Assembly (NCBI RefSeq): GCF_002005105.1
Contig: NZ_MSCV01000045.1
Coordinates: 1-45,801 of the forward strand
Direction of reading: 5' to 3'
Length of the DNA: 45,801 nucleotides
From: Methylocaldum sp. 14B
GTDB taxonomy: Bacteria; Pseudomonadota; Gammaproteobacteria; Methylococcales; Methylococcaceae
This document shows positions 2,206 to 42,514 of this stretch, one piece after another. Position numbers and translations under genes: made by a program. A model generated the notes under the pieces. That model had not been told where the DNA came from. It was given only the letters and a program-made list of their open reading frames with translations, and did no database searches. Numbering within the stretch: the first letter of the stretch is position 1; each line of letters opens with the position of its first letter.

Positions 2206-2210
2206 GGATT

Positions 2211-3428: not shown

Positions 3429-3474
3429 CACGGTTTTTATACCATCCACCCGTTTACCTGATTCCGTTTTACTT

Positions 3475-3927
3475 ATGATTCGTACTCTTATGCAAAAACA
3501 TCGACATCATCATGGCCGCGCTCAGCGCGGTTTTACCCTGATCGAACTCTTGGTCGTACTGGCCATCATCGGCATGCTGGCCGGCTTGGTCGGGCCTCAG
3601 GTCGTCAAGCACCTGGGAGAATCCAAGACCAAAACCGCCAAGCTGCAAATCGAGGAACTCTCTTCCGCGCTCGACATGTACCGGTTGGATGTGGGCCGCT
3701 ACCCGGCCACCGACGAGGGACTCGCAGCGCTCATCGAGCAACCGAGCAACGCCAAAATCTGGAACGGCCCTTACCTCCGCAAGAAAAGGGTCCCGGTCGA
3801 TCCCTGGAACAATCCTTATCATTACGCTTCGCCCGGCCAGCACGGAAAATTCGATCTTTTCACCCTGGGGGCCGACAACGCCGAGGGCGGCGAAGGCGAG
3901 GACCAGGATATCGTAAGCTGGGAATAG
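3475..3927 (+). CDS. gspG: Type II secretion major pseudopilin GspG
   Basis: GspG is the major pseudopilin polymerised under the inner membrane by GspE/F. It shows a class III leader with the prepilin-peptidase site RG^FTLIELLVVLAIIG and Glu at +5, then the GspG signature DVGRYPATDEGLAAL, the GPYL and DPW motifs, and an acidic C-terminal loop (GADNAEGGEGEDQD) matching the calcium-binding loop of the family. The start is uncertain: ATG 3412 would overlap gspF by 17 bases and give a 40-residue leader, while ATG 3475 or 3490 gives leaders of 19 or 14 residues, nearer the family norm. None has a clear Shine-Dalgarno. Confidence 0.93.
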   Translation: MIRTLMQKHRHHHGRAQRGFTLIELLVVLAIIGMLAGLVGPQVVKHLGESKTKTAKLQIEELSSALDMYRLDVGRYPATDEGLAALIEQPSNAKIWNGPYLRKKRVPVDPWNNPYHYASPGQHGKFDLFTLGADNAEGGEGEDQDIVSWE

Positions 3928-3933
3928 AAAGGC

Positions 3934-4533
3934 GTGTTCTTCGAATGCCTCGGGCTTGAAAAAAAGACGCTGCAGCAGGCGAGAAATCCATTTGCGCACC
4001 GAAAACTCGATAGCCTGAGGTACCCCGTTCGCGCGGTCAAACACAAGGTTCGGCGTCCGCACGCAAGGTTCCGAGCCGAAGCCCGCGGCCCCTCACGGTC
4101 GGGCGGATTCACGTTGCTGGAGATGCTGTTGGCGCTGGCTATAGCCGCCGCACTGACGGCGGTGGCGGTACCGAACGTCACGCCGCTTCTGAACCGTGCC
4201 CAGCTGACGGCTGCCACGCGGGATATCGCGTCCGGCCTGCGCTATGCACGCGGACAGGCGCTCAGCGGAGCGCGCGAGGCAACATTCGAGCTCGACGTGA
4301 ACCGCAAAGCCTACCGGGTCAGCGGTCGCCGAAAACATTTTTCACTGCCCGACAGCGTCCGCCTCAGCCTTTACACCGCCGAGAGGGAAGCCGGAGACGA
4401 AGGAATCGGCAATATCCGTTTCTTCCCGGACGGCTCCTCGACCGGCGGGCGGGTGACCTTGGAGGCGGCCGGGAAAAAGCGCCTGGTGGACGTGAATTGG
4501 CTCACCGGGGAGGTCGTAATCCGTGAAGACTAA
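3934..4533 (+). CDS. gspH: Type II secretion minor pseudopilin GspH
   Basis: A minor pseudopilin. The cleavage site SGG^FTLLEMLLALAIAAAL is followed by the GspH pattern: a short alpha-C region (RAQLTAATRDIASGLRYARGQAL) and a C-terminal beta region with FFPDGSSTGG, the GspH/FimT hallmark. With the only available start (GTG 3934) the leader is 58 residues, Arg/His-rich and much longer than usual. No ATG, GTG or TTG occurs in frame between 3934 and the cleavage site, so either the leader is long or a CTG codon initiates. The 3' end overlaps gspI by 11 bases, which supports coupled translation. Confidence 0.9.
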   Translation: MFFECLGLEKKTLQQARNPFAHRKLDSLRYPVRAVKHKVRRPHARFRAEARGPSRSGGFTLLEMLLALAIAAALTAVAVPNVTPLLNRAQLTAATRDIASGLRYARGQALSGAREATFELDVNRKAYRVSGRRKHFSLPDSVRLSLYTAEREAGDEGIGNIRFFPDGSSTGGRVTLEAAGKKRLVDVNWLTGEVVIRED

Positions 4534-4939
4534 ACAACGCGGATTCTCCTTGCTCGAAATCCTGGTCGCTTTCGCCATCCTGGCTCTGGCTTTGGGCGTG
4601 CTGCTCCGTATTTTCGGCGGCGCCGGACGAATCTCGGGACTCGCCGACAAGTACGCTCGCGCGGTCGTGATCTCCGAATCGCTGCTTGCGGCTGCCGACT
4701 TGGAGACCCCTTTGCAGCCGGGCGAAACGAGCGGCGAAATCGACGCGATTTTTCGTTGGACTATGCGCGTAACCCCCTATCAAGGGGAGGAACAGATCCC
4801 GTTTGCCGAGAACTTGCCTGTCGCGCCCTATCAGGTGGATCTCAGCATAGAATGGGAGGAAGGCGATGAACCCCGCTTCTTCGAGCTTACGACACTCAGG
4901 CTGCTGCCTAACAAAGCAGCAGGAATCAGCAGTTTTTGA
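4523..4939 (+). CDS. gspI: Type II secretion minor pseudopilin GspI
   Basis: A minor pseudopilin that, with GspJ and GspK, forms the tip complex that starts pseudopilus assembly. The product is 138 residues, normal for GspI. The short leader MKTKQRG is followed by ^FSLLEILVAFAILALALGVL with Glu at +5. Start at GTG 4523 gives this seven-residue leader and overlaps gspH. The stop TGA (4937-4939) shares one base with the gspJ ATG. Confidence 0.92.
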   Translation: MKTKQRGFSLLEILVAFAILALALGVLLRIFGGAGRISGLADKYARAVVISESLLAAADLETPLQPGETSGEIDAIFRWTMRVTPYQGEEQIPFAENLPVAPYQVDLSIEWEEGDEPRFFELTTLRLLPNKAAGISSF

Positions 4940-5583
4940 TGATGACCGCGCATAAGCACCGGACCAGCGCCGGCTTCACTCTGATCGAGGTACTCATCGC
5001 CACGACTCTGCTCGGCGTCATGATGCTTTTGTTATTCGGCAGTTTGCGTATCGGGGTAACCAGTTGGGACAGCGGCGAGGACAAAATGGCGCGGGCAAGC
5101 CGGCTTTTCCTCGTGGAGAATTTTTTGCGCAACCACATCGGAAGCGCTTTGCCTCTGGTCGAGATGGAAGAGTCCGAAGGCGTCGCCATTTCCTTGAGAG
5201 GCGGAGAGGATTGGCTCGAATATGTTTCGACAATGCCGCCGCAGGTCAAGGCCGGCGGTCTATATCGATTCAGATTGTATGTCGCTAGGGACGGGCAACA
5301 TAACGATCTGAAGGTCGCCATGCGGCCGTACGTCTCGAACCCGAATTCGCGCGAAGCCACCGTAGCGGCCGAGCCGATCGAAGATGTATTGCTGCTGGAA
5401 AATCTGGATCAAATCAAATTGTCCTACCTGCCGGAAAATCTCCAGACCGCTCAAACAAGCAATTCGACTTGGCTGCCGGAATGGCAGCAGTCTCAGTTGC
5501 CGATGCTGATTCAAGTGCAAATCGAACCGGAGCATGAAGAACCCTGGCCTCCTTTAGTGATCGCGCTGCGAACTCACCGATAA
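4939..5583 (+). CDS. gspJ: Type II secretion minor pseudopilin GspJ
   Basis: GspJ of the tip complex, 214 residues. Leader MMTAHKHRTSAG^FTLIEVLIATTLLGVMMLL with Glu at +5, then the family's 'GVTSWDSGEDK..RASRLFLVENFLR' region. I chose ATG 4939, whose A is also the last base of the gspI stop codon; a TTG three bases upstream is the alternative. The stop TAA (5581-5583) overlaps the gspK ATG, so gspI-J-K form a translationally coupled run. Confidence 0.92.
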   Translation: MMTAHKHRTSAGFTLIEVLIATTLLGVMMLLLFGSLRIGVTSWDSGEDKMARASRLFLVENFLRNHIGSALPLVEMEESEGVAISLRGGEDWLEYVSTMPPQVKAGGLYRFRLYVARDGQHNDLKVAMRPYVSNPNSREATVAAEPIEDVLLLENLDQIKLSYLPENLQTAQTSNSTWLPEWQQSQLPMLIQVQIEPEHEEPWPPLVIALRTHR

Positions 5584-6503
5584 TGCCTATGGCGTTTCAC
5601 GCACGAACGGGACAGCAAGGCGTAGCCCTGATTTTGGTGCTCTGGATACTGGCTTTGATGACCATCATGGCGGGCAGTTTCGCGCTGTCGACCCAGCGGG
5701 AAACCTCATTGGTGACCAATTCCCGGGAACGCGCCAAGGCGGTTGCCTTATCCGACGGCGGCATACATTACGCCATGTTCATGCTGAGTTTGCCGAATGC
5801 GGCGCAGCGATGGCGCGCGGACGGCACTCCTTATCGACTGGCATTGGGCGGCGTTCCCATCGAAGTACGCATTTACGACGAGGCAGGAAAAATCGATCTC
5901 AACGCCGCCCGAGAATCGACACTACGGACTATATTGACCAAAGTGACCCAAGACGAAGATCAGGCGGTAAAATTGGCCGATGCCATTTTCGACTGGCGCG
6001 ACAGCGATGACCTAAAGCGTCTCAGTGGGGCCGAGTCCGCCGAATACCGCGCCGCCGGGCTGGATCAGATGCCGCAAAACCGTAATTTTCTCGTACTGGA
6101 AGAACTCCGCGGCGTTTTGGGAATTACACCGTCGCTATACCAAAAATTGGAGCCCTTTTTCACAGTCTACAATAACGTCGATGGCGTCAACCCGGCAAAG
6201 GCCTCGATAACTGTTTTACTGGCCCTGACCGACGGAAACAGCCAGGCGGTGGACAGCTTTCTCGCCGCCCGTGAGAGCGGAACCGGGAATACACCACCTC
6301 CTCCGCTTCCCGCCATTCCCGGAATTCGGTTCCACTCGACCGGGGATTCGGTTTACACGATTCTCGCCCGCCCGATATCGCGAAACCATTCCGATCCGCC
6401 GGCTATGGCCGTCATCCGACGGGAAGCGAGACGCCCTGGGGGAAGCCCTTTCGTTTTCCTGAGATGGAAACCGCAGACAGTCGGCGTAGCGCTCGACCAA
6501 TAG
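5583..6503 (+). CDS. gspK: Type II secretion minor pseudopilin GspK
   Basis: GspK caps the pseudopilus tip. The leader MPMAFHARTGQQG^VALILVLWILALMTIMAG lacks Glu at +5, a known GspK trait because it sits at the tip. It is followed by the large alpha-domain insert typical of GspK (AGKIDLNAA, AIFDWRDSDD, ELRGVLGITP), giving 306 residues. ATG 5583 overlaps the gspJ stop; an ATG two codons on (5589) is equally possible. Confidence 0.93.
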   Translation: MPMAFHARTGQQGVALILVLWILALMTIMAGSFALSTQRETSLVTNSRERAKAVALSDGGIHYAMFMLSLPNAAQRWRADGTPYRLALGGVPIEVRIYDEAGKIDLNAARESTLRTILTKVTQDEDQAVKLADAIFDWRDSDDLKRLSGAESAEYRAAGLDQMPQNRNFLVLEELRGVLGITPSLYQKLEPFFTVYNNVDGVNPAKASITVLLALTDGNSQAVDSFLAARESGTGNTPPPPLPAIPGIRFHSTGDSVYTILARPISRNHSDPPAMAVIRREARRPGGSPFVFLRWKPQTVGVALDQ

Positions 6504-6519
6504 CACACATGCAGTACAC

Positions 6520-7626
6520 ATGCTGAAACTCGATACGCCGATCAATCTCGATGCCGCAAGATTCTTCCGCTGGTGGAGCGGCGAATTGTCCTTTCTCGTG
6601 CCGGCGAAATTGAGAAAACTTCTCGGTGCATCCAGTGAATATCTGATATTGACCAAGGATGACGATGGCGTGAATGCGGTCTACCACAACGATGAAGAAG
6701 ACCGCCCGCTCGGCTATTTCAGCTTGGACGAGAGCGGCAGCCAAAAACGGGAACGCCTCATAGAAAGCATGCCGACGCTGGCCGAGGCAAAAACAATCCT
6801 GCGCTTGACGCCAGGCCAGTGCTTGCGGAAATCGTTAAAGCTTCCGTTGGCGGCCGAAGAAAACCTGAATCAGGTGGCGGCATTTGAAATGGATCGCCTG
6901 ACGCCATTCAAGAGCGATCAAGTTTATTACTCGGCGCGCCTGCTGGAGCGGTCGCCGACGAATCGGCAGATCAAGGCGGAACTGGTATTGGCGCCCCGCA
7001 ACAAATTGGATGCCTTGCTGGAAGAATTGGCGGTTTGGGGATGGCGACCGGACGTCGTCGATGCGGCGGGCGACTCCCCGATCGGGGCGTACGATTTATT
7101 GCCCGAGCAGTACCGGCCGCCACGCAATCCTTGGCCATACAGAATCAATTTGGCACTTGCCGCTTTGATCGCATCGCTCTTGATCACGCTGGGAGTTCTG
7201 CCGATCTGGACCAATCGATCGATCGCACTGGACCTGGAACAGGAAGTGAAAAAGGCCAGCAAGACCGCCAAGGAAGTCGAATCCTTGCGCCAACAAGTAG
7301 AGGATTTGGTGCACCAGACGAGATTTCTTCAGCAGAAGAAGCGTACCGAGCCGGCCATGGTGGACATGCTCAAGGAGCTGACCGACGTCATGCCCGATCA
7401 AACCTGGCTCAACGGCTTGCAGTACCGGGATCACCGGCTGGTCGTACAAGGACAGTCACCATCCGCTTCGGCCTTGATCGGGCTGATAGAAGCATCGCCG
7501 TTCTTTCAAAATACCAGTTTTGTGTCGCCGGTGACAAAAGACATGGCCAGTGGATTGGAACGTTTTCAAATCGCCAGCGAAGTCGTCAACGGGAGGTTTT
7601 CTGAAAAACCGGCTGCAACTGAGTAA
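6520..7626 (+). CDS. gspL: GspL-like type II secretion protein with PilN-type C-terminus
   Basis: GspL links the cytoplasmic ATPase GspE to the inner-membrane platform. The 368-residue product has an actin-like cytoplasmic region (about 1-205), one transmembrane helix (about 208-230, NLALAALIASLLITLGVLPIW), a periplasmic coiled coil (about 235-280) and a C-terminal ferredoxin-like PilN/GspL domain (about 290-360). It lies between gspK and gspM-like genes, the usual GspL position. Sequence divergence from enterobacterial GspL is large, so the call rests on architecture and context. Confidence 0.85.
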   Translation: MLKLDTPINLDAARFFRWWSGELSFLVPAKLRKLLGASSEYLILTKDDDGVNAVYHNDEEDRPLGYFSLDESGSQKRERLIESMPTLAEAKTILRLTPGQCLRKSLKLPLAAEENLNQVAAFEMDRLTPFKSDQVYYSARLLERSPTNRQIKAELVLAPRNKLDALLEELAVWGWRPDVVDAAGDSPIGAYDLLPEQYRPPRNPWPYRINLALAALIASLLITLGVLPIWTNRSIALDLEQEVKKASKTAKEVESLRQQVEDLVHQTRFLQQKKRTEPAMVDMLKELTDVMPDQTWLNGLQYRDHRLVVQGQSPSASALIGLIEASPFFQNTSFVSPVTKDMASGLERFQIASEVVNGRFSEKPAATE

Positions 7627-8182
7627 ACCGCAGCTCCTGGCCCTAGGAATCCTAGTCGGTGCCATCGCCCTGCTTTATGTGGTGGCGATTGCCCCGCTGG
7701 TCGATCTTGCCCGGGAGTACGGCGAAACCGTCGACGATTTACGGTTTCGTCTGCAACGCTATCAAAAAGTCGCCGCGGAAAAGGACGAGCTGCTCGCCAA
7801 GCTGGAACAGATCAAAGCCGCGGGACAGCAGGACGAGCGCTTTATTGCGCGCGATACTGCGGCCTTGGCTTCCGCCGATTTGCAGTCGATGGTCAAAGAG
7901 ATCGTAAGCCAAGCCGGCGGCGAGCTGACCAGCACCCAGGTGATCCCCGAGCGGAAGGAAGAAAATTTCACGCGAATCGCCGTCAAGATACGTGTCAACG
8001 GCAGCACTGACGTATTGCGGGATGTTCTGCACAGCATCGAGACCTCGAAGCCCATGCTGTTCGTGGAGAACATCAATATCCGGCCGATTCGGATGCCGCG
8101 CAATCCGGCGACCAAGCAGTCCCAGCCGGTCGATAAGCTGAGCGTGGACTTTGACGTTATCGGTTACATGCAGGGCAATTAA
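7550..8182 (+). CDS. gspM: GspM-like type II secretion protein
   Basis: GspM is a bitopic inner-membrane protein that binds GspL. The product shows a short cytoplasmic N-terminus (RLQLSKPQLLALG), one helix (about 33-52), a coiled-coil stretch and a periplasmic ferredoxin-like region with PilO/GspM character. The annotated start GTG 7550 overlaps gspL by 77 bases. A clear GGGAGG at about 7590-7595 stands six bases before an in-frame CTG (7601), which would give a 193-residue protein starting LKNRLQLSK, a more typical GspM N-terminus. I cannot decide between them. Confidence 0.82.
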   Translation: MDWNVFKSPAKSSTGGFLKNRLQLSKPQLLALGILVGAIALLYVVAIAPLVDLAREYGETVDDLRFRLQRYQKVAAEKDELLAKLEQIKAAGQQDERFIARDTAALASADLQSMVKEIVSQAGGELTSTQVIPERKEENFTRIAVKIRVNGSTDVLRDVLHSIETSKPMLFVENINIRPIRMPRNPATKQSQPVDKLSVDFDVIGYMQGN

Positions 8183-8185
8183 GCC

Positions 8186-8866
8186 ATGACCAAGTGGGCC
8201 CGCGACAATTTACTCAGTTTGATTTTGGCCGGCATTGCAAGTGTGCTGCTCATCGGCGTCGCCGTCGAATCGGCGGTGTTGAAAAACAAGCGATCGATCG
8301 CGGCGACACCTTCGGAAAAAGCCGCGAGTCAGGAAGCAACCGAGCCGGTCGACGCCGAAGATTTCGAACTGCCCGACATTCAGGAATACGAAACGATCGT
8401 CGAGCGCCCGTTATTCATGGAAGGCCGCCGCCCCGGAGCGGAAGGAGGGGAAACAACGGCTACGGCGACACCGGATATGCCTCTGACCGTGAAGCTGATG
8501 GGGATCGCTTTCACTCCGACCGACAAGACTGCCCTCCTGGTAGACGCCAAAGGCAAGTACAAACGCTTGAAGAAAAACGGTTCGATCGAAGGTTGGACAT
8601 TGGTCGAGTTCGCCCCGGATAAAGTAACGCTGCAACGTGACGACGAACAACGAGAGCTGATGCTGCTCAAACCCAAACCCAAGACTGCACCCGCTCAGGC
8701 GACACCAGGACAGCCTCAGCAAGTCCCGCAGCAGCCATCACCTCCGAGGCCGGCGACACGTCCGCCTGCGCCTCCGCCTCCTCCGGCGGTTGAAGAAACA
8801 GAGGAAGAACCCGAAGTCATAGAGGAAGAGGAAACGGCTGAGGAAGAAGCCGAAGGCGTAGAGTAG
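8186..8866 (+). CDS. GspC-like inner-membrane protein with homology-region domain, no PDZ
   Basis: A 226-residue bitopic protein: N-terminal helix at about 10-30, then a linker, then a small beta domain (about 60-160: ETIVERPLF, LTVKLMGIAFTP, ALLVDAKGKYKRLKKN) resembling the HR domain by which GspC contacts the secretin N0 domain. It ends in a Pro/Gln-rich stretch and a highly acidic Glu tail instead of the PDZ or coiled coil of classical GspC. It probably couples the platform (GspL/M) to GspD. Databases sometimes call such proteins GspN; classical outer-membrane-type GspN is not what is seen here. It is the last gene before a terminator. Confidence 0.75.
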   Translation: MTKWARDNLLSLILAGIASVLLIGVAVESAVLKNKRSIAATPSEKAASQEATEPVDAEDFELPDIQEYETIVERPLFMEGRRPGAEGGETTATATPDMPLTVKLMGIAFTPTDKTALLVDAKGKYKRLKKNGSIEGWTLVEFAPDKVTLQRDDEQRELMLLKPKPKTAPAQATPGQPQQVPQQPSPPRPATRPPAPPPPPAVEETEEEPEVIEEEETAEEEAEGVE

Positions 8867-8895
8867 TAACAATATCTTCAGCGATTAGGAATACC

Positions 8896-8938
8896 GAGTC
8901 TCATGAGGGCGTGAAAAATCCACTCATGAGGCTTTTTT
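8896..8938 (+). terminator. Rho-independent terminator after the gspC-like gene
   Basis: GAGTCTCATGAG (8896-8907) pairs with CTCATGAGGCTT (8923-8934) around an A-rich loop. The CTCATGAG core gives eight uninterrupted pairs, extended by G-C and A-T with wobble positions, and a run of six T follows at 8933-8938. It would end the gspE-to-gspC-like transcript and make gspD a separate unit. Confidence 0.85.
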
Positions 8939-9291
8939 GATGCAAAGAGGAAAGCTTCCCGTTCCGGTGTCACCAATGGCTGTAGCCATGATCAGATGGC
9001 GGTTCTTTCCTGGAGCGCATCCGGTATGCTCTGCTTCAGCTGCCTTCATGGAGGGCGGAGTCGTTGCAAGTGGTCGACGTGCTGCGTCTTATCCGGGGAG
9101 AGAAAGAAACCTTTGCTTTCACTTTTCTGCTCGAAAGATGCCGGAATGGCGATTTTTCGAGATTTTACCGAGTAGTCATTCGTGTTGAATCATGGTGATA
9201 AATCGTAGAATGCGGTTCGGGTATTCACCGCATCCTGCAAAACAATGCTTTAGATAGACTGACGACCAGACATCAAAAACGAAAAGAGTCC
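8939..9291. other. Intergenic region between the terminator and gspD
   Basis: About 350 bases without a supported gene. A frame at 8937-9188 starts inside the terminator T-run and has no recognisable content. The promoter of gspD should lie in the AT-richer last 100 bases, but no consensus element stands out. A GAAAAGAG purine stretch at 9281-9288 may serve as the gspD ribosome binding site. Confidence 0.5.
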
Positions 9292-11613
9292 ATGCGCAAA
9301 ACAACAAATCGATTCATAGTTGCACCGCTGGTGGTTGCCTTGGGGTTCTCCGGATGCGAATACATGGGACCTGCTGCGACAAAGCCTGAATTGCCGGCAA
9401 ATCTCGCCATCGATACCGAAAAGACCGAAGCGGAGATTACGCCTATCCAAACCGAACCCCTGGAGGCGCAGCCCGTCAGGCCTCCCGAGTACTACCCTGC
9501 CACCGGCGGTTTGATCGGCCCCGGAGCGCCTGCCGAAAGGCGGCCCGCTAAAGAGGGAAAATACACGCTTAATTTCGACGATGCCGACTTGGGCGAGGTG
9601 GCCAAGGTCATACTGGGCGATATGCTGAGAGTCAATTACGTGCTTAGCCCCAAGGTAGCAGGCAAAGTAAGCCTCCAGACAGCGCGTCCCCTTACCGATG
9701 CGGAGCTGATCCCCACGCTGGAAATGCTGCTCAAAATGAACGGCGCAGTACTGATTCGCGACCAAAACCTGTACCGCATCGAACCGGACGCCACGGCGAC
9801 GATCAACGCTCCCGGTGCCCGGCTCGGCGTACCCAGCCAGGCGCTCCCCTCCGGCTATCAGTTGCGGGTCGTACCATTGCGCTACGTGGGCGTGCAGGAA
9901 ATGCAAAAGGTCATCGAACCGATGATGCCGCCCAAGTCCATCATCCGCGCCGATGAGACCCGAAATATCCTGGTACTCGCCGGCACCGGAGAGGAATTGG
10001 AAGGCGTGCTCGATACGATCCGCCTCTTCGACGTGGATTTCATGCGCGGCATGTCGGTCGGCTTTTATCCGCTTCGAAACGTCGAACCTTCGACGATAGC
10101 GCAAGAGCTGGACAAAGTGTTGGGCGACACGGCCAAAGGACCTCTGGCCGGTGTAGTCCGCTTATTGCCCATCGAACGGCTCAACGCCATCTTGGCGGTG
10201 ACTCCCCAACCGCATTATTTGGACGAAGTGGAAACCTGGGTGGAAAGACTCGACCGCTATAGCACCACGCGAGTGGGTGGAATTCACGTTTATCGGGTGC
10301 AGAACGTGGATGCCGTGGAATTGGCCGAAACCCTCAGCGGTATTTTCGGCGAGGGAGTTGCGCAGCGGAGAGCGCCCAGACCTTCTATAAGCCCGGGAAT
10401 GACAGGTACGGAAATCGGTGCGTTCGGCGCCGGTGCGGCGGGCGGCATTGGCGATCAGGACGGATCTTCGTTCGGTACTACCGGGACATCGCAACCTACC
10501 CGTGGCTTCGGCTCCACGACCGGAAGCGATACGATCGGCGGCACAACGACGGGCGGTACTCGCCGAACCGGCGGATTGGGAACAGGCACCGGTATCGGCA
10601 CGGGCACGGGAATAAGCGGGGTCACCGGCAGGCGAGGCGCCAACGGCACCCGACAAGCACGCCGCTCCGCCGTCGCCGAGTTCGGCGAAATGCGCATCGT
10701 TGCCGATCCCTCGAACAATGCCCTGATCATCATCGCCAAAGCCCAGGAATACCAGGAGATCGAGGCAGTCATCAAAGCTTTGGACGTGACTCCTTTGCAG
10801 GTTCTGATCGATGCGTCTATCGTCGAGGTGACTCTGGATGACGAGTTACGGTACGGACTCAGATGGTTCATCCAGCACGGCTCGGGAGCGGCCGTACTCC
10901 GCAATCCACTCGCCGAAGTGCTGCAGGAGGCGGCATTGGCAGGGGGATTTACTTATTCCTTGGTAGCCGCCTCCAGAGATATCCGGGTCATGCTCGATCT
11001 CTTGGCGAGAGATCGCAAACTGAACGTCCTGTCCTCGCCTTCGTTGATGGTTCTCAACAATCAAGAAGCAACCATCAAGGTGGGCACCCAGGTACCGATC
11101 CTGACCGCCTCATCCGTCCCGACTACTGCCGGCGCCGCGACCAACCCCATCGTCACGAGCCAAATTCAGTATCGCGACACGGGCGTCAACTTGAACATCA
11201 GGCCTCGGGTCAACGCGGGCGGACTGGTCACTCTGGACGTCGAGCAGAGTGTGGATGACGTAGGTGAAGCCTCATTCGGAGACACCCGATCGCCCTCGTT
11301 CTTCCAAAGGCAGATCAAGAGCAGCATCGCAGTCAGGAGCGAAGACACCATCGCGTTGGGAGGATTGATCAGCGAAAATGCGGAGCAGAATAGAACCGGC
11401 ATCCCGATACTGTACAAGCTTCCCTGGATTGGCCCCTTATTCGGGTCGACCAGCAAAACGAAGCGGCGCACCGAACTCGTGATACTGCTCACCCCGCGCG
11501 TCGTCGAAAACCGGGACAAGATCAGGAACATCACCAACGAGTTTCGCCGCAAACTGACCGGCTTGTACGAGGCCAAGCCTGCACCGGCAGAACCTCCTCG
11601 TCCCGCGCGCTGA
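9292..11613 (+). CDS. gspD: Type II secretion secretin GspD
   Basis: GspD forms the outer-membrane channel. The 773-residue product begins with a signal peptide ending in a lipobox-like FSGC (Cys 22), suggesting a lipoprotein secretin that may need no separate pilotin. N0 (LNFDDADLGEVAKVILGD, from about 83), N1, N2 and N3 domains follow. The C-terminal secretin domain has VPILTASSVPT, the TGVNLNIRPRV region and the terminal LFGSTSKTKRRTELVILLTPRVV motif. Between N2 and N3 lies a roughly 90-residue Gly/Thr/Arg-rich insert (about 365-460), longer than usual. It is separated from the other gsp genes by a terminator, so it is probably transcribed on its own. Confidence 0.94.
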   Translation: MRKTTNRFIVAPLVVALGFSGCEYMGPAATKPELPANLAIDTEKTEAEITPIQTEPLEAQPVRPPEYYPATGGLIGPGAPAERRPAKEGKYTLNFDDADLGEVAKVILGDMLRVNYVLSPKVAGKVSLQTARPLTDAELIPTLEMLLKMNGAVLIRDQNLYRIEPDATATINAPGARLGVPSQALPSGYQLRVVPLRYVGVQEMQKVIEPMMPPKSIIRADETRNILVLAGTGEELEGVLDTIRLFDVDFMRGMSVGFYPLRNVEPSTIAQELDKVLGDTAKGPLAGVVRLLPIERLNAILAVTPQPHYLDEVETWVERLDRYSTTRVGGIHVYRVQNVDAVELAETLSGIFGEGVAQRRAPRPSISPGMTGTEIGAFGAGAAGGIGDQDGSSFGTTGTSQPTRGFGSTTGSDTIGGTTTGGTRRTGGLGTGTGIGTGTGISGVTGRRGANGTRQARRSAVAEFGEMRIVADPSNNALIIIAKAQEYQEIEAVIKALDVTPLQVLIDASIVEVTLDDELRYGLRWFIQHGSGAAVLRNPLAEVLQEAALAGGFTYSLVAASRDIRVMLDLLARDRKLNVLSSPSLMVLNNQEATIKVGTQVPILTASSVPTTAGAATNPIVTSQIQYRDTGVNLNIRPRVNAGGLVTLDVEQSVDDVGEASFGDTRSPSFFQRQIKSSIAVRSEDTIALGGLISENAEQNRTGIPILYKLPWIGPLFGSTSKTKRRTELVILLTPRVVENRDKIRNITNEFRRKLTGLYEAKPAPAEPPRPAR

Positions 11614-11616
11614 TCG

Positions 11617-11665
11617 GAGTAATCGGCGGCGGTAAACGCTCCGGCGCGGTTACGCCGCCTTACTC
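11617..11665. terminator. Bidirectional terminator-like inverted repeat between gspD and ctaA-ftsY
   Basis: Left arm GAGTAA..GGCGGCGGTAA (from 11617) and right arm GGTTACGCCGCCTTACTC (to 11665) form a long GC-rich hairpin between two convergent genes. The right arm includes the stop codon of the minus-strand gene. There is no long T-run on either side, so it may act partly through Rho or as an mRNA 3'-end stabiliser. Confidence 0.55.
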
Positions 11666-13672
11666 TGCAAAAAGAGCATCCACAAATTTCCGCGCATCGA
11701 AATCCTGCAAATCATTGATGCCCTCGCCGATCCCGATGAACCGGATGGGCAGCCCGAACTGCTTGGCCAAGGCGAAAATAACGCCGCCTTTGGCGGTACC
11801 GTCGAGCTTGGTGAGCGCGATGCCCGTCAGCCCGACCGCTTCGTTGAACAGCTTGGCTTGGGAAATCGCATTCTGGCCGGTGCTCGCATCGAGCACCAAG
11901 AGCACCTCATGCGGCGCGGTCTCGTCCAGCCTGCCCATGATGCGCTTGATCTTGCTGAGTTCCTCCATGAGATTCGATTTCGTGTGGAGACGTCCCGCGG
12001 TATCGGCGATGAGCACGTCGACGCCCCGCGCCTGGGCCGCCTGCACCGCGTCGTAGATGACCGAAGCCGAATCGGCCCCGGTATGTTGGGCGATCACCTG
12101 GACGTTGTTCCGCTCGCCCCAGGTCTGCAACTGCTCTACCGCCGCAGCACGGAAAGTATCGCCGGCCGCCAGCATGACGCTGTGGCCTTGGTTTTGAAGA
12201 CGTTTGGCGAGTTTGCCGATGGTCGTGGTCTTGCCCACGCCGTTCACGCCCACGACCAGGATCACGAACGGCCGAGTCTCGGCCGGAATGTTGAGCGGAA
12301 CGCTGACGGGCCGCAGGACATCGTATAAATATTCGCGGAGGCTGGCCGCCAAGGTGCCGACATCGGCTAGCTGATCCCGCTCCAGACTTTCCGTCAGATG
12401 GCGAATAATGTCCTGAGTCGCCGTCACGCCGACGTCGGCCATGAGCAATTGGGACTCGATGTCTTCCAAGACGTCGCGATCGATGGCCTTCTTGCCGAGC
12501 GCCAGCGTACCCAGAAATCCGGTCAGACCGCTGCGGGTTTTCCCGAGCTGGCTTTTGAGCCGAACGAACATGCCCTCCGGCGTGGGCCGCGCAGGCACCT
12601 TTTCGACGGGAACCGGCGGGACGACCGGCGGCAAGACCTCGGCAGGCGGCGCGACACCGATGCGCTCGACGGCTTCCTCGCGCGCGGGCTCTTCGGCTTC
12701 GACTCGGCGCGGCAGGCGGAGATAAAGATAGGCATGGAGCACATTCAGCCAAAGCAGCGCGGCCACGGCATGGTGCGCGACCGCCACGGCGACCGGCAGG
12801 CGCAGCAGCACCGCTGCGATCCCCAAGCTGATCTCCGCCAGCAGCAAAAAGCTGAGGAGCACACCGGCCTTGCTCAGGTGGGGCACCTTACGATTCGAGG
12901 TAATGCCCATGGCCAACAGGCTGAGGACCAGAAATACTGCGACGGCTCCGATACGGTGCGCCCAATGGATGGCGATGCGGGCGTCCAGCGGCAATCCGCC
13001 TCTCTGATACTCGGGACCGGTACCCCGCCAAAGCGTAAAGCCGTCGACGTAATCGGCATCCGGCCACAGCGAACCCATGCACGTGGGGAAATCGGGGCAG
13101 GACAGCGCAGCGTAATTGGACGATGTCCATCCGCCCAGAAAAATCTGCGCGAACAACAACAGCAAAGAAAAACCGCTCAAGCGGCGCAGCCAACGGGTGT
13201 CCCCGACCGGCAGAATCTGCGGACTCACCGTGCGGTATAACCAATACAACAGGGCAAGCGTCACGAACCCCGCCATCAGATGGGCCGTGACGATCGCTGG
13301 CATGACCAGGAATTTCACCGTCCACATGCCGAGTAGCGCTTGTCCGACCACCAGGGCAAGGCTTGCGTAAGTCAATGCGATCGCCTTGCCCCGGTTTTCC
13401 CGCACCCGGAATACGAGTCCCGCCAGTATCAAAACCGAAACGCCCAAGGCTCCGGCAAGATAGCGATGAATCATTTCTTTCCAGGCTTTGGCCGCGTCGA
13501 ACGGCGTCTGCCGCAACGCCTCGGCGATTTGCGGCTCTTCGACGATCATCTTTCCGTAGCAGCCGGGCCAATCCGGACACCCTAGCCCGGCATCCGAAAT
13601 GCGGACATAGGCTCCCATCGCCATGACAAAGAAGGCGAGAACCAGGGAAAAAAGCGTTAGATTTCTGAACAT
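11660..13672 (-). CDS. Fusion of heme A synthase (CtaA/COX15) and SRP receptor FtsY
   Basis: One uninterrupted 670-codon frame joins two complete proteins. Residues 1-320 are heme A synthase: eight predicted helices, Cys pairs GCPDWPGC (32/38) and SCPDFPTC (192/198), and the heme-ligand His positions (H69 in EMIHRYLAG, H131, H236/H240 in IHWAHR, H300/301). Residues 321-366 are acidic then Pro-rich, like an FtsY A domain. Residues 367-670 are FtsY NG: N domain with RLKSQLGKTRSGL, P-loop GVNGVGKTTT (475-484), DTFRAAA, DTAGR (557-561), TKLDGTAKGG (621-630) and the C-terminal GIGEGINDLQDF. CtaA makes heme A from heme O; FtsY docks ribosome-nascent chain-SRP complexes at the membrane. The fusion topology works because the CtaA C-terminus is expected in the cytoplasm. 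Neighbouring SURF1 and SCO-like genes are normal for ctaA; no other ftsY is in the window. Confidence 0.93.
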   Translation of the reverse strand: MFRNLTLFSLVLAFFVMAMGAYVRISDAGLGCPDWPGCYGKMIVEEPQIAEALRQTPFDAAKAWKEMIHRYLAGALGVSVLILAGLVFRVRENRGKAIALTYASLALVVGQALLGMWTVKFLVMPAIVTAHLMAGFVTLALLYWLYRTVSPQILPVGDTRWLRRLSGFSLLLLFAQIFLGGWTSSNYAALSCPDFPTCMGSLWPDADYVDGFTLWRGTGPEYQRGGLPLDARIAIHWAHRIGAVAVFLVLSLLAMGITSNRKVPHLSKAGVLLSFLLLAEISLGIAAVLLRLPVAVAVAHHAVAALLWLNVLHAYLYLRLPRRVEAEEPAREEAVERIGVAPPAEVLPPVVPPVPVEKVPARPTPEGMFVRLKSQLGKTRSGLTGFLGTLALGKKAIDRDVLEDIESQLLMADVGVTATQDIIRHLTESLERDQLADVGTLAASLREYLYDVLRPVSVPLNIPAETRPFVILVVGVNGVGKTTTIGKLAKRLQNQGHSVMLAAGDTFRAAAVEQLQTWGERNNVQVIAQHTGADSASVIYDAVQAAQARGVDVLIADTAGRLHTKSNLMEELSKIKRIMGRLDETAPHEVLLVLDASTGQNAISQAKLFNEAVGLTGIALTKLDGTAKGGVIFALAKQFGLPIRFIGIGEGINDLQDFDARKFVDALFAE
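12569..12580 (-). promoter_or_regulatory. Possible internal ribosome binding site and start for free FtsY NG domain
   Basis: On the minus strand the bases GGAGGGCATG place a strong GGAGG two bases before an in-frame ATG (codon 368 of the fusion). Initiation here would give a 303-residue FtsY beginning MFVRLKSQLGKT, closely aligned with the EGFFARLK start of the NG+1 form of E. coli FtsY. The spacing is shorter than ideal (5-8), so efficiency is uncertain. Confidence 0.4.
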
Positions 13673-13881: not shown

Positions 13882-14484
13882 TCAGCCGATCTGGGATGCG
13901 CGAAGCAAATGCTTTAAATCCTTGAGCATGCCGTAAGGATCGAACCCGGAGTCGTACCATAGCGCGGCATTCCCGAACGGATCGATCAGAATCACCATGT
14001 CCTCGGTCAAAGGCTTTCCGACGACGGCGGCCAATTTCTGCGATAACGCCCCGCTCGTCACCGCCACCAGCAAGGTTTCATCGTCATTGAGCACGGGAGC
14101 GAGATCGGCGGCGGCGGAATCGTTTCCGAGCAGCAGCAAACGGCGCACCCTCGGAATTTCCTTGTTCAGCATGAGCCGGATCTGCTTGGTCTTATGAATC
14201 GTTTCCGCGCAAGGGTCGCCGCACCTATCCGGAATCACGTGGAGCATCACCCAGCGACCTTTGATCTCCGACAATAGCTCGCTTCCACGGACGGGGTGCG
14301 CGAGCAATTCGCCGTAATCGATAGGGCTCGGCGGCTGGATCAGGCTGCCGTAGTTGCTGCGCTTGGTGATCAGCTGCGGATTCTTGGCGTAGTACCAAGC
14401 CAGCCCGAAAGGAATAATGGATATTAGGGCGATAAAAATGATCAGGGCGCGATTTCGCCACAGAGAGTTCTTTGCGGTAGACAT
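13882..14484 (-). CDS. SCO-like cytochrome oxidase assembly protein
   Basis: A 200-residue protein with one N-terminal helix (about 10-32, ALIIFIALISIIPFGLAWYY) and a periplasmic thioredoxin-like domain carrying DRCGDPCAE, a C-x3-C motif like the copper site of SCO proteins. It lies between SURF1 and ctaA, the place in Pseudomonas-type cox operons of a conserved assembly protein of this kind, so a role in copper or thiol handling for cytochrome oxidase is likely. The usual distal copper-ligand His of SCO is not evident. I chose ATG 14484; an upstream ATG at 14553 would add 23 polar residues and overlap SURF1. Confidence 0.75.
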   Translation of the reverse strand: MSTAKNSLWRNRALIIFIALISIIPFGLAWYYAKNPQLITKRSNYGSLIQPPSPIDYGELLAHPVRGSELLSEIKGRWVMLHVIPDRCGDPCAETIHKTKQIRLMLNKEIPRVRRLLLLGNDSAAADLAPVLNDDETLLVAVTSGALSQKLAAVVGKPLTEDMVILIDPFGNAALWYDSGFDPYGMLKDLKHLLRASQIG

Positions 14485-14512
14485 GGGAAGAATGGGTGAA
14501 AAATTAGGGAAA

Positions 14513-15277
14513 TTATTGCCTTCGAGGCTGTAATTTGACGCCGTGGCGAACATATAACACCAGGCCGATTAACGCGAACAGAAACCATTGAAGCGCGTAT
14601 CCCAGGTTCTTTCCGGGATCGAGGTGGGTTTCCTTCCAAGCCCGGATGTAAGCTTCGTCCACCGTTTCATCCGCCAGAACCTGATAGGGAAGGACCGTGT
14701 AGCCCAACCGCTCGCCGATGCGTTCAGGATCGACGACCTGGACCACGGCCGGCCAGCCAGCCGCGGGTATTTCAGCGCCTTCGAGCCTTAAACCAACGCC
14801 CGGAAAGCGGTCCACCGAGCCGGCGATTTGTACGCTAGCCTGACGAATATCCACATCGGGCAGTTCGGCTCGGCTTGCACCCATGGGTATCCAGCCGCGG
14901 TTCACCAAGACCGCCGAGTCCGTTCCGGCAATGCGCAGAGGAGTCAATACGTGATATCCGGGGCTCTGCTGGTGGACCTGGTTATCCAATAGGAATTGAT
15001 GTTCCACGTCGTACTCCCCGGAAACGATGACTCGCCGGTATCGAACATCCTCCAAGTTCGGTTCTTCGGCACCCAAGGTCAGCGGTTCATCTTGCATCCG
15101 CTGCTGATGCAATGCGATCAAGCTTTTTTTTTCGTCGGCTCGATGCAACTGCCAAACGCCTAAGGAAATGAACAGGGGAAGGACCATGATCGCTATCAGC
15201 GAAGCAGTCAGCCCCGGTTTGAAGCTATAATCGCGCAATCGCCACCTCCGGGTGAAAACATCCGGTGCCCGCACCAC
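14513..15277 (-). CDS. SURF1-family cytochrome c oxidase assembly protein
   Basis: SURF1 proteins assist heme A insertion into cytochrome oxidase subunit I. The 254-residue product has the two terminal helices (about 22-42 and 228-246) and the conserved features GVWQLHRADEK, RYRRVIVSGEYD, PGYHVLTPL, VNRGWIP and GYALQWFLFA. It starts at GTG 15277 with GAGGTG upstream, and sits head to head with the DUF2909 gene. Downstream on the same strand come the SCO-like gene and ctaA, so this looks like one operon for heme A/oxidase maturation. Confidence 0.92.
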   Translation of the reverse strand: MVRAPDVFTRRWRLRDYSFKPGLTASLIAIMVLPLFISLGVWQLHRADEKKSLIALHQQRMQDEPLTLGAEEPNLEDVRYRRVIVSGEYDVEHQFLLDNQVHQQSPGYHVLTPLRIAGTDSAVLVNRGWIPMGASRAELPDVDIRQASVQIAGSVDRFPGVGLRLEGAEIPAAGWPAVVQVVDPERIGERLGYTVLPYQVLADETVDEAYIRAWKETHLDPGKNLGYALQWFLFALIGLVLYVRHGVKLQPRRQ

Positions 15278-24296: not shown

Positions 24297-24300
<4 letters not shown>

Positions 24301-25610
24301 TTCGCCCCGCCGCCGACCAGCACGGTCCGCATCTTGCCCGGATCGATCCGGGACCGGAAAGCGCGCTTGATATCCTCACGGGTCACCGCCTCCACCTTCT
24401 CGGTAAACGTGGCGAGGTAATCAAGAGGACGGTTGTAAAACGCGACGTTGGCCACCTGCAGGGTGAGTTTCTGATTGCTGTCCAGGCGCAAAACGAAACC
24501 GCCGATGATATTTTTCTTGGCGGCTTCCAGTTCCTTATCGGTCGGTCCGTTCGCGGCGAAATCCTTGATGGTGTCGAGAGCGACGCGCAAGGCTTCCTCG
24601 GCCTTATCGTTGCGGGTCTGGAGCCCCATCTGGAAAGGCCCGAGTTCCCGAAGCGGCATGAAATAGCTGTAGGCGCTGTAGGAAAGCCCTCGTTTTTCGC
24701 GGACTTCCGTGCTAACGCGGGAAACCAGGCCGCTGCCGCCCAGAATGTGGTTACCCACGTAAAGCGGAAAATAGTCGGGATCGGTCGCTGTCATCCCTAG
24801 AACTCCGGCACGCACATGAGTCTGCTCCGACGGGAACTGCTGTTTGATGATTTCGGCCGACTGCAGCGGCGCGGGCGCAGGCAACGCTGGCGGAGCCGAG
24901 CCTTTTTCGAGGCCCGACAGCAGTTTTTCGGCGACAGCTTCAGCCTCGGCCCGTTTCACATCGCCCACGATCACGACGATGGCATTGCTCGCCACATAGT
25001 GGCGTTTATGGAAATCGACCAGATCCTCGCGGGTCAATGGCGCCACTGTTTCGGCAAAACCCTCCTGCGGATGGGCATAAGGATGGTTACCGTACAGTAC
25101 TTGGAAAAACGCGATCTCGACGAGTTCGTCCGGTTCCTCGCCGCGCTGCTTGATCGCGAGCAGCGTCCGGTTTTTCTCCCGGTCGAAGTCTTTCTGCTCG
25201 AAACGGGGGTGAGCCAAGACTTCCCGGGCCGTATCCAAGGCGACACCGAGCTTCTCGGGATGGGTCAGGCTGCGCAGCGACAAATAGGCCGAATCGCGCG
25301 AAACACCGGTTCCCATTGATGCTCCGACGCTCTCGAGCCGCTGGGCGATGGCATCGGCATCCCATTCTCCCGCGCCGGTGTCGAGCATGCCGGACGTGAG
25401 AGCGGCAAGGCCGAATTTTTCACCGTCGCGGGCACTGCCCGCGTCGAACACGACCTGAACGTCGAGCAGCGGCAAACCTTCGGTCGGCACGAAATAGATC
25501 CGGCCGCCCTGCGGCGAGACCCAATGCTGGATTTCCGGCACGGCGTAAACCGGCGCGCTGATCAACAAGAACAGAAACACGATCCATCGGGACATGCGCT
25601 TAACGAACAT
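24297..25610 (-). CDS. M16-family peptidase-like protein lacking the zinc motif
   Basis: A 437-residue secreted protein (signal peptide to about residue 24, ending PVYA) with the two-lobed M16 fold: inverted-zincin-like N-lobe and a C-lobe with the GNHILGGSGLVSRVSTEVREKRGLSYS signature. The HxxEH position reads FGLAALTSGML, so zinc ligands and catalytic Glu are absent. In M16B pairs such a subunit partners an active one for substrate binding, here the gene just upstream. Start ATG 25610 has GGAGGTGATC directly before it; a GTG at 25616 is less likely. Overlaps the active peptidase by 11 bases. Confidence 0.9.
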
Positions 25611-26982
25611 GATCACCTCCCATCGGTGCGGCTTCTTCCGGCGCCTTCGCGCCTTCGGGCATGGGCAACGGCTCCAGATAGGCCACGCTCAGCCGATCGT
25701 CGATCAGGTATTTCCGGGCAACCTTTTGAACCTGCTCGGCCGTCACGGCGTTGACCTTGTCCACATACTCCTGGACGGTTTTCCAACCGAGCCCGACGGT
25801 TTCGGTCATGCCAAGCTGCATCGCCTGATAAAACATGGAATCCCTCTGATAAATATGATGGGCCAGAACCTGCGCCTTGACCCGCGCCAGTTCCGCGGCG
25901 GAAACCGGTTCGTCCTGAAGGCGACGGATTTCCTCGCCCAATGCTTTCTCCAGTGCCTGCAAGGTCTTGCCTTGGGCGGGCGTCCCCTCCAGGGTAAACA
26001 GATTGGACAAGCGCGAATAAAGGTTATAGCCGGCTCCGGCGGATGCCGCCACCTGCTGCCCGCGCACCAAGCGGCTGGACAGCCGCGCGCTGTTGCCGCC
26101 ATCCAGAATCCCGGCGGCGACTTCGAGCGCGTAAGCCTCCCAATCCTCTTCGCCTATCGTTCGCAAGGCGGGGGTCTTGTAGCCCATCACGAGATACGGC
26201 AGCTTGGCCGGCAGACGAACCGTCATACGCCGCGCCCCGAGTTGCTCGACTTCGCCTCGCGGCTTGATTTCCGGCAGTTTGCTGGGTTTCAACGGACCGA
26301 AGTATTTCTTGGCGAGTGCGTAAACCTCCTGCGGATTCACGTCGCCGACGATGACGAGGATGGCGTTGTTCGGCGCGTACCAAAGTCCGTACCAATGATT
26401 GAGATCGCCCACCGTCAATCTGCTGACGTCGTCCGGCCAGCCGATGACCGGATTCTTGTAAGGGCTGTTGGTGTAGGCAACCGCCTGAAAATGCTCCTCC
26501 ATTTTGGCGCGCGGCTGATCGTCGGTGCGCAGCCGCCGCTCCTCCAGGACGACTTGTTGTTCCTTCTTGAATTCCTTGTCGGACAGGAGCAGATTCCGCA
26601 TGCGGTCCGCTTCCAGTTCGAAGCTCACGGGCAGCCTGGTTTTTTCCAGGGTCTGAAAATAGGCCGTGTAATCTTGCCCGGTGAAGGCGTTTTCTCGACC
26701 TCCGTTTGCTGCGATAATACGGGAGAATTCGCCCGGCGGGTGTTTCTCGGTACCCTTGAACATCATATGCTCGAGCATGTGCGAGATGCCGGTGATACCG
26801 CCGTATTCATAGCTTGCGCCCACTTTGTACCAAACCTGCGTAACGACTGCCGGCGCACGGTGGTCTTCCTGGACCAAAAGCTTCAACCCGTTATCCAGCC
26901 GGAACTCGTGAACCGCAGGCTCAGCAGCGTGAAGCGACAACGGTAATACCAGCAAGGCCAGACGGAGTCCGCGAAACTGCAT
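25600..26982 (-). CDS. M16-family zinc metallopeptidase (active subunit)
   Basis: A 460-residue exported M16 peptidase with signal peptide (about 1-20, LPLSLHAA) and intact zinc-binding HMLEH (His 68, Glu 71, His 72) with the downstream Glu in VVLEERR (about 148). The C-lobe has SARLSSRLVRGQQVA and the conserved Arg/Tyr region. It likely acts in the periplasm on peptides or misfolded proteins with its non-catalytic partner downstream. The M16-M16-rsmD order is shared with Pseudomonas, where ftsY is the next gene on the far side; here ctaB takes that place. Confidence 0.93.
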   Translation of the reverse strand: MQFRGLRLALLVLPLSLHAAEPAVHEFRLDNGLKLLVQEDHRAPAVVTQVWYKVGASYEYGGITGISHMLEHMMFKGTEKHPPGEFSRIIAANGGRENAFTGQDYTAYFQTLEKTRLPVSFELEADRMRNLLLSDKEFKKEQQVVLEERRLRTDDQPRAKMEEHFQAVAYTNSPYKNPVIGWPDDVSRLTVGDLNHWYGLWYAPNNAILVIVGDVNPQEVYALAKKYFGPLKPSKLPEIKPRGEVEQLGARRMTVRLPAKLPYLVMGYKTPALRTIGEEDWEAYALEVAAGILDGGNSARLSSRLVRGQQVAASAGAGYNLYSRLSNLFTLEGTPAQGKTLQALEKALGEEIRRLQDEPVSAAELARVKAQVLAHHIYQRDSMFYQAMQLGMTETVGLGWKTVQEYVDKVNAVTAEQVQKVARKYLIDDRLSVAYLEPLPMPEGAKAPEEAAPMGGDHVR

Positions 26983-27065
26983 TTGACGCTCTCCTGAATG
27001 TGTTGAGGATTGAACGGCAGGTTGCCGAACCAGCCGGTATTGTAAACGAAGACCGTAGCGAAACG

Positions 27066-27980
27066 ATGAACTCGACGACTGATATCGAATCCACGAATGC
27101 CGTTTCCTGGCGAACCTATCTCGCCCTGTGCAAACTCAAGGTAGTCGGCCACATCGTGTTCACCGCCGTGATCGGCATGTTTTTGGCCGTTCCGGAACTC
27201 CCTCCTCTGGCGGTTTCGTTGTGGGCAAGCCTCGGCATCGGTCTCGCCGCCGCGTCCGCAGCCGCTCTCAACCACTTCCTGGACCGCCGTGCGGACGCCG
27301 AAATGGCGCGCACCCAGAACCGCCCCCTGCCCTCGGGGCACGTTCAGCCGAACCAGGTGGTGATCTTCGCCGCCACTCTGGGCACGCTCTCGATGGCGAT
27401 TCTGATCCTGTTCGTAAACGCGCTAACCGCGTTTTTGACCTTTCTTTCGCTGATCGGCTACGCCTTCATCTACACCGTCTATCTGAAGCGCGCGACTCCG
27501 CAGAACATCGTGATCGGCGGCGCGGCCGGCGCGGCTCCGCCGGTGCTCGGCTGGTGCGCCGTGACCGGCGGGGTGCACCCTTACGCCCTGCTGCTGTTCC
27601 TGCTGATCTTCACCTGGACCCCGCCCCATTTTTGGGCCTATGCCATCGCGAAGCGCGACGATTACGCCAAGGTGAACATCCCCATGCTGCCCGTGACCCA
27701 CGGCGTGGAGGTAACGCAGCTGCACATCCTGCTCTACACCATATTGCTGGTGATCGTAAGCCTGTTCCCGTATCTCACCGGCATGAGCGGCTTTCTTTAT
27801 CTGGGAGCGGCCGTGGGGCTCGGAATCGGATTTTTATACTACGCGATTCGCCTCAAGAAAGAGGCAGACAACAAGCTGGCCATGAAAACTTTCGGCTATT
27901 CGCTGGTCTATCTGGTCGGGATATTTTCGGCCTTGTTGATCGATCATTACGTTCCGCTCATTGCGGGCTTGACTCGGTAG
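27066..27980 (+). CDS. ctaB: Protoheme IX farnesyltransferase (heme O synthase)
   Basis: Transfers farnesyl to heme B to make heme O, the substrate of heme A synthase. The 304-residue polytopic protein (UbiA superfamily, about nine helices) shows NHFLDRRADAEMARTQNRPLPSG, the Asp-rich prenyl-diphosphate site, YTVYLKRATPQNIVIGGAAGA, and the second Asp-rich loop KRDDYAKVNIPMLP. I chose ATG 27066 (MNSTTDIE); the frame extends to 27000 without need. In related genomes ctaB follows ctaA directly, but here they are 13 kb apart. Also called cyoE. Confidence 0.95.
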   Translation: MNSTTDIESTNAVSWRTYLALCKLKVVGHIVFTAVIGMFLAVPELPPLAVSLWASLGIGLAAASAAALNHFLDRRADAEMARTQNRPLPSGHVQPNQVVIFAATLGTLSMAILILFVNALTAFLTFLSLIGYAFIYTVYLKRATPQNIVIGGAAGAAPPVLGWCAVTGGVHPYALLLFLLIFTWTPPHFWAYAIAKRDDYAKVNIPMLPVTHGVEVTQLHILLYTILLVIVSLFPYLTGMSGFLYLGAAVGLGIGFLYYAIRLKKEADNKLAMKTFGYSLVYLVGIFSALLIDHYVPLIAGLTR

Positions 27981-39133: not shown

Positions 39134-39144
39134 AGGAGGGCTCC

Positions 39145-40442: not shown

Positions 40443-40481
40443 ATTGTTCCCCTACTTGTGGGCATATTTGGAGAAGACATC

Positions 40482-41289: not shown

Positions 41290-41301
41290 GGCTGATACGC
41301 C

Positions 41302-42514
<1,213 letters not shown>

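Follow-up and report, generated by a model that had tools for sequence, protein, structure and literature searches.

The window, by which we mean the whole analysed stretch of 45,801 nucleotides from Methylocaldum sp. 14B, carries on its reverse strand a single open reading frame that starts with ATG and codes for 670 amino acids followed by a stop. According to the ORF listing and the translation, this frame joins heme A synthase (CtaA) and the SRP receptor FtsY with no internal stop. The fused gene, its parts and the relevant neighbours are as follows.

11660..13672, reverse strand: ctaA::ftsY fusion gene (ORF list, translation, Pfam, NCBIfam, relatives)
12719..13672, reverse strand: CtaA half, amino acids 1-318, with eight predicted transmembrane helices (Pfam PF02628; AlphaFold helices; loop charges fitting N-in/C-in)
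13226..13669, reverse strand: N bundle, amino acids 2-149, with the substrate-heme site E66, H69, H131 and Cys32/Cys38, complete in the window protein (role of the bundle according to PMC7327177 and PMC8239418)
12719..13195, reverse strand: C bundle, amino acids 160-318, with presumed heme-b ligands H239/H300 and the Cys192/Cys198 loop (residues kept in 63/63 fusions of the first genome set)
12572..12718, reverse strand: disordered Pro/Glu-rich linker, amino acids 319-367 (AlphaFold; comparison with the N-termini of sister FtsY proteins)
12500..12571, reverse strand: retained second membrane-targeting helix of FtsY, amino acids 368-391 (AlphaFold, alignment)
11663..12499, reverse strand: FtsY NG domain, amino acids 392-670 (Pfam, NCBIfam, E. 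coli FtsY match, fold comparison)
13882..14553, reverse strand: gene of the former cox cluster upstream of the fusion, 223 amino acids, without a Pfam family at 1e-5 (at the corresponding position in sister genomes)
14513..15277, reverse strand: SURF1 (Pfam PF02104, 157 bits)
24297..26982, reverse strand: two M16 peptidase genes (adjoining ftsY in sister genomes)
27000..27980, forward strand: ctaB, of the UbiA family, in divergent orientation to the M16 genes and at the place of ftsY in sister genomes (putative inversion scar)

Pfam recognizes COX15-CtaA at residues 4-311 (232 bits, cut-off 29.9), SRP54_N at 391-447 and SRP54 at 468-668 (262 bits). The original prediction of a complete FtsY NG domain is borne out by these SRP54 matches and by the NCBIfam ftsY model TIGR00064, which scores 368 bits (cut-off 260.7). 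The NG part matches E. coli FtsY with E 6e-121, and its predicted fold reaches a TM-score of 0.94 to 7o9h, normalised by the target. Columns which we take to be the P-loop and the DTAGR motif are among those invariant in an alignment of 63 fusions.

The AlphaFold model of the CtaA half contains eight long helices (2-25, 60-89, 94-120, 125-149, 160-185, 229-258, 264-289, 294-318), a number also predicted in a second model. They are followed by the disordered linker (pLDDT below 50 at 326-364), by helical residues 368-391 and by the NG fold. The linker, rich in Pro, Ala and Glu, occupies the place of the A domain and the N-terminal helix of separate FtsY. No relative of the CtaA half was among the best 50 rows of a Foldseek comparison, all of them FtsY or related SRP GTPases; by sequence, its only solved relative is heme O oxygenase 8aw5. 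The predicted helices, hydropathy and the N-in/C-in pattern of loop charges fit a transmembrane anchor with the NG domain in the cytoplasm, in agreement with the tethering proposed originally. As E. coli FtsY is reported to be predominantly membrane-bound anyway (PMC2780400), the change would be from peripheral and reversible to permanent attachment, and not one from cytosol to membrane.

Key residues of the window protein are Cys32/Cys38, Glu66, His69, His131, Cys192/Cys198, His239 and His300. Judged by motif and helix order, E66, H69 and H131 would correspond to E57, H60 and H123 of Bacillus subtilis CtaA, as numbered in Table 1 of PMC8239418. Histidines 69, 131 and 300 had been named correctly, while the position given as 236/240 is rather His239, with His236 its neighbour. 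Eight helices, two cysteine pairs, the glutamate and four histidines are shared with type 1.1/class B heme A synthase (the B. subtilis type CtaA), which differs in that the fusion bears FtsY and in that the substrate site is incomplete in 49 of 63 fusions.

Elsewhere in the window, a type II secretion cluster was noticed by eye at 445-11613, its last gene converging with the fusion and ending 46 bases from its stop. The stretch 33423-45801 holds, again as recognized by eye, type I CRISPR-Cas genes and after them a repeat array giving spurious repetitive ORFs (HPHVRGEQ...).

Distribution of the fusion

The first genome set consisted of the window genome (84 contigs totalling 5.62 Mb, with a listed completeness of 100%) and 80 relatives. 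Outside the sister families f6 and f7, the same single unbroken frame is present in 63 of 66 genomes, the window genome included and some of them complete chromosomes, so that the in-frame fusion and the expected occurrence of such chains in related genomes both hold. The three genomes left uncounted have a broken frame (G013), no match to the FtsY model (G018, 89% complete) or a gene cut by two contig ends (G032). The fusion was not seen in the 13 f6 and 2 f7 genomes of the set.

In a wider sample of the order (311 genomes), 278 of the 291 genomes outside f6/f7 match the fusion at 1e-110. Coordinates were seen for about half of the order's matches: 149 of 150 lie in open frames of 618 codons or more and start at or before query position 68, inside the CtaA half; one of these frames (G466) has an internal TGA, and the 150th match (G032) begins at a contig end. 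Of 32 doubtful genomes re-examined, ten yielded weaker matches at best, or no match at 1e-25, and FtsY was not found there; of 17 rechecked loci, 16 have one uninterrupted frame or extend past the end of their contig, and one (G606) is broken. No intact separate ftsY was seen in any genome of the fused families, as judged by coordinates for about half of the order's matches.

Beyond the order, no fusion was detected at E 1e-140 in the 397 other genomes of a phylum sample of 398, a threshold below which a strongly decayed fusion could score. In a class sample of 369 genomes, the only full-length matches among those listed (to about E 5e-118) were G000, G012 and G044, all of this order; some other FtsY rows of this sample lie within long open frames, of which a part was read. 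By crude hydropathy, all 63 fusions have 6 to 8 membrane-like windows before the NG domain. Of 27 frames with a separate FtsY that were read in other families of the class, 25 have none, and in the remaining two (L166, L170) the hydrophobic windows lie a long way upstream within the frame. An FtsY match in another family of the class (G345 C31:17235-18146) lies in a 944-codon open frame and possibly has a long N-terminal domain.

Fused matches occur in records named Methylotetracoccus oryzae, in two Methylothermaceae MAGs (family f5), in a Methylomonas MAG and in the methane-oxidising endosymbiont of Gigantopelta aegis; from such record names, we infer that the host order is that of the methanotrophic Methylococcales. 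A 91% identical fused gene in a record titled Methyloversatilis universalis (L213, DYIL01000008.1), a name out of line with the other carriers, is probably on a contig of a mislabelled MAG. A link to methane oxidation was considered and dropped: PF02461 (pMMO/AMO subunit A) is found in 57 of the 81 genomes, f6 and f7 among them, and does not distinguish fused genomes from unfused ones. Counted irrespective of heme type, oxidase subunit I (TIGR02891, E 1e-100) is matched in 74 of 81 genomes, 69 above cut-off.

The fusion is the sole FtsY of its carrier. A search for a second intact ftsY, suggested by the original prediction, gave none in the window genome: of three SRP GTPase domain matches, the fusion alone passes the FtsY cut-off, and the other two would be Ffh and FlhF, to judge by score and length. 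The cut-off is passed in 79 of the 81 genomes, in 78 of them by exactly one gene; G065 has a second, partial one.

Heme A synthase, on the other hand, is commonly present twice. The window genome has the fusion and a free-standing CtaA gene on contig C1, and another CtaA accompanies the fusion in 60 of the 63 fused genomes; of the three in which none was found, G040 and G035 keep the full substrate site. We read 43 of these additional genes from 42 genomes. All except one belong to a single type that has Asn in place of H69 and lacks the second cysteine pair; in the CtaA tree, a 100/100 branch splits it from fused, sister and other gammaproteobacterial CtaA. The exception is a paralogue of the fused half, found in G004 (C13:503800-505400, L129). 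It clusters on a long branch with the fused half of its own genome and is apparently a copy of it without FtsY. A second free-standing gene of the same Methylotetracoccus-like genus g2 lies on contig C4 of G018 (L116).

Gene order and origin

Families f6 and f7 have ftsY and ctaA as separate genes, which converge in 12 of the 12 genomes with both on one contig; in two others (G042, G049) they are on different contigs, and G080 has no CtaA match. In the three sister loci that were read (L119, L120, L121), ftsY-ftsE-ftsX-rpoH converges with ctaB-ctaA-orf-SURF1, and M16 points away from ftsY. The order of fused genomes is SURF1-orf-ctaA::ftsY-ftsE-ftsX-rpoH. It is best seen in G052 (L209), where M16, M16, ctaB, rpoH, ftsX, ftsE, ctaA::ftsY, orf, SURF1, coxC and three more genes follow each other; the one of the three with a 532-aa product is oxidase subunit I, and size and place suggest ctaG and coxB for the other two. 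G058 likewise has ctaB and M16 at the end of the series, and f8 genomes keep the run from SURF1 to rpoH intact. Parts of the ancestral order are missing in other genomes, most of all in the window's own family f1. At the four loci measured (L201, L202, L206, L209), 6 to 63 bases separate the stop of the fusion from the longest ftsE frame downstream of it.

One inversion of the ftsY-to-ctaB stretch in the sister order would yield the fused order as found in G052, placing ctaA directly before ftsY and ctaB beside M16. The window would thus keep two scars of this event, SURF1-orf-ctaA::ftsY and ctaB divergent from M16. In a quick FtsY tree, which included 14 of 27 fetched outgroup loci, the fused halves form one side of a branch (SH-aLRT 94), with f7 next. 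The fused CtaA halves, 24 of 63 being used, form no single clade and are unresolved in the CtaA tree, which we therefore do not use as proof of a single origin.

Fate of the CtaA half

In sister CtaA, all residues named above (N site, heme-b histidines, both cysteine pairs) are kept in 14 of 14 sequences. The two bundles of the fused half have fared differently. Among the 63 fusions, E66 is present in 17, H69 in 44 and H131 in 48, all three together in only 14, the window's genus among them. C32 is present in 62 and C38 in 61, while H239, H300, C192 and C198 are kept in every one. The seven invariant columns of the CtaA half (G180, C192, P196, C198, P204, H239, H300) all belong to the C bundle. 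Parsimony on the FtsY tree gives 11 changes for E66, nine each for H69 and H131, and none for H239, H300, C192 or C198. As H239, H300 and the second cysteine pair occur in all 14 sister CtaA, this conservation is inherited and not new.

H69 and/or H131 are lost in 22 of the 63 fusions, both of them in 12. Oxidase subunit I is matched in each of the 12 double losers, above cut-off in 11 and just below in G051, and 11 have another CtaA, the exception again being G051 (85% complete). Since single substitutions at such sites occur also in CtaA types of Table 1 in PMC8239418, a single missing residue is by itself no proof of lost activity.

A further 50 fusions were chosen with their residues unseen: 40 from the order-wide matches, the second 20 of them purposely more diverged, and ten from the rechecked genomes. 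In their C bundle, H239 and H300 are kept in 49 each, C192 and C198 in 48 each; P196 (45) and P204 (44) proved less constant than in the first 63. In their N bundle, C32 and C38 are kept in 37 each, H69 in 33, H131 in 30 and E66 in 26, with the full substrate site in 21. The only fusion read that has lost all four C-bundle residues, L356, keeps E66 and H69 and comes from a MAG with 7% contamination (G611). L296 (G641) has lost both C-bundle cysteines and has histidine at both aligned places; the first lacks the usual following Arg, and the alignment is less sure there. In one genus (G650, G658; L304/L305), the frame is reduced to 565 amino acids with six predicted helices, two N-bundle helices, an even number, being gone and the C-bundle motifs kept; it should be borne in mind that simple-threshold hydropathy undercounts, giving eight windows in 42, seven in 18 and six in 3 of the 63 full-length fusions.

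Wherever dN/dS could be computed for the CtaA half, it is below 1, the linker exceeding 1 in one pair. As dS is saturated in some pairs, the bundles were compared by dN alone, with 18 of 22 fused pairs (four reuse a genome), 6 of 8 second-CtaA pairs and 5 of 5 sister pairs. The median ratio of N-bundle to C-bundle dN is 1.66 in fusions with incomplete site (13 pairs) against 0.70 in free CtaA (11 pairs; p = 3e-5). Fusions with complete site have a median of 0.99 (5 pairs), which does not differ significantly from the incomplete ones (p = 0.06). In three pairs of the window's genus, dN/dS of the N bundle is 0.06-0.09, below that of the C bundle (0.12-0.15). With its complete site and this lower N-bundle dN/dS, the CtaA half of the window's genus may well be an active enzyme.

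The fused protein as probable SRP receptor

FtsY needs contact with the membrane (PMC5533587, PMC2780400). In E. coli FtsY, lipids are bound by an N-terminal helix and by another between the A and N domains (PMC2780400). A transmembrane segment or an unrelated membrane protein can stand in for the first lipid-binding motif (PMC5533587, PMC2780400), to which MFGFG at the N-termini of sister FtsY presumably corresponds. FtsY tethered by an unrelated membrane protein is functional in E. coli (PMC2780400, PMC5533587), which makes anchoring by CtaA plausible.

We propose, with a probability of roughly 0.7, that the sole SRP receptor of these bacteria is held permanently in the inner membrane by what was once a heme A synthase and still carries heme b. 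A single inversion in the common ancestor of these families would have set ctaA directly upstream of ftsY, and the reading frames would have joined; eight membrane helices and a flexible linker would then have replaced the N-terminal lipid-binding helix. The receptor would be at the membrane before contact with SRP, the retained second targeting helix serving lipid-dependent activation. Another CtaA of different type would have made heme A synthesis by the fused half redundant and so allowed the substrate-heme half to decay many times, while the half with heme b and the second cysteine pair would have stayed under selection as anchor. The simplest reason for keeping the latter may be that heme stabilises the anchor, and the boldest may be a regulatory role. 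Under a more speculative extension, which we consider unlikely, the receptor is a b-type cytochrome whose C bundle needs heme b, perhaps also a periplasmic disulfide, to fold; heme supply or the redox state of the envelope would then license the sole SRP receptor and, through it, co-translational targeting of membrane proteins. Because isolated heme A synthase is a trimer with the C bundle as its core (PMC7327177), the receptor might also work as fixed trimers.

The original prediction went further in having both halves functional, with heme A synthesis and SRP targeting sharing one polypeptide. Such a protein would make heme A with its CtaA half and couple oxidase assembly to membrane protein insertion. 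The full N site of the window protein and of the 14 fusions speaks for this, as do the purifying selection on the N bundle in the window's genus, the position of the fusion within the cox operon in several families, the wide occurrence of oxidase subunit I and the two genomes (G040, G035) that combine a full site with no other CtaA found. Set against it are the 22 fusions without H69 and/or H131 and the second CtaA of 60 fused genomes; moreover, the double losers retain an oxidase match and, in 11 of 12 cases, another CtaA, so that coupling is possible for some genera only. The claim may stand for the window's genus and fails as a general rule; as an explanation we hold it to be possible, if tentative. 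We judge it unlikely that the CtaA half is an anchor of which any membrane block would do, its histidines and cysteines being structural leftovers without heme. It is true that unrelated membrane segments suffice for tethering in E. coli (PMC2780400, PMC5533587), that the N bundle is dispensable, that the C bundle as trimer core (PMC7327177) may be kept for structure alone, and that L356 does without all four of its residues. However, such an anchor needs neither axial histidine, yet each is kept in 112 of 113 fusions, and even L296 has histidines at both aligned places (the first being aligned less surely).

The two remaining alternatives concern the frame itself. FtsY might be freed by an internal start or by proteolysis, the fusion being mere translational coupling; codon 368 of the window gene is indeed ATG, and GGAGG precedes it at a distance of two bases. 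Across 62 fusions, however, this codon is ATG six times, TTG nine times and CTG 30 times, and G003 of the same genus has the ATG without any GGAG-like site. As the 62 fusions compared (of 63; G061, whose row was unmatched, is omitted) show neither a conserved start codon nor a conserved ribosome-binding site at the junction, the internal start was rejected, and two separate products appear improbable. An assembly or frameshift artefact, to which the broken frames of G013 and G606 might point, is practically inconceivable with the same frame in 63 genomes, among them the single-contig G003, G060 and G069; we take this reading as refuted.

A search of open-licence papers, mostly by titles and abstracts, yielded no description of a CtaA-FtsY fusion; ftsY and ctaA are named as separate genes in PMC3403918. 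Several known systems share some of its traits. With E. coli FtsY, it has in common the NG domain and the second membrane-targeting helix, CtaA and the linker standing in place of the first lipid helix. The natural FtsY of the actinobacterium Streptomyces lividans has likewise been proposed to be membrane-integral (PMC6022935). There it is a hydrophobic N-terminal segment, in contrast to the eight-helix enzyme domain with heme ligands of the fusion. Bibi 2001 and Maeda 2008 are reportedly further sources for membrane-integral or tethered FtsY, being cited for it by others. A laboratory NG construct, also permanently tethered, is functional in vivo, but the fusion is natural, is the sole FtsY and occurs in most families of an order. 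CtaA is joined to another protein in the CtaA-CtaB fusions of other bacteria too, where the partner acts one step earlier in the same pathway (PMC9145763, PMC8239418). Finally, the GTPase SR alpha of the eukaryotic SRP receptor is permanently held at the membrane by the integral SR beta (PMC2780400), in that case by two chains and an unrelated anchor.

Across most of an order, the fusion would offer a natural test of whether FtsY has to alternate between membrane-bound and free states, as the sole receptor appears never to leave the membrane. It would also present a stepwise conversion of an enzyme into an anchor, the stages of which (complete site, lost site, lost helices) are present in different genera. 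Lastly, aerobic methanotrophs might have coupled protein targeting to the binding of heme, a possibility that is open to experiment.
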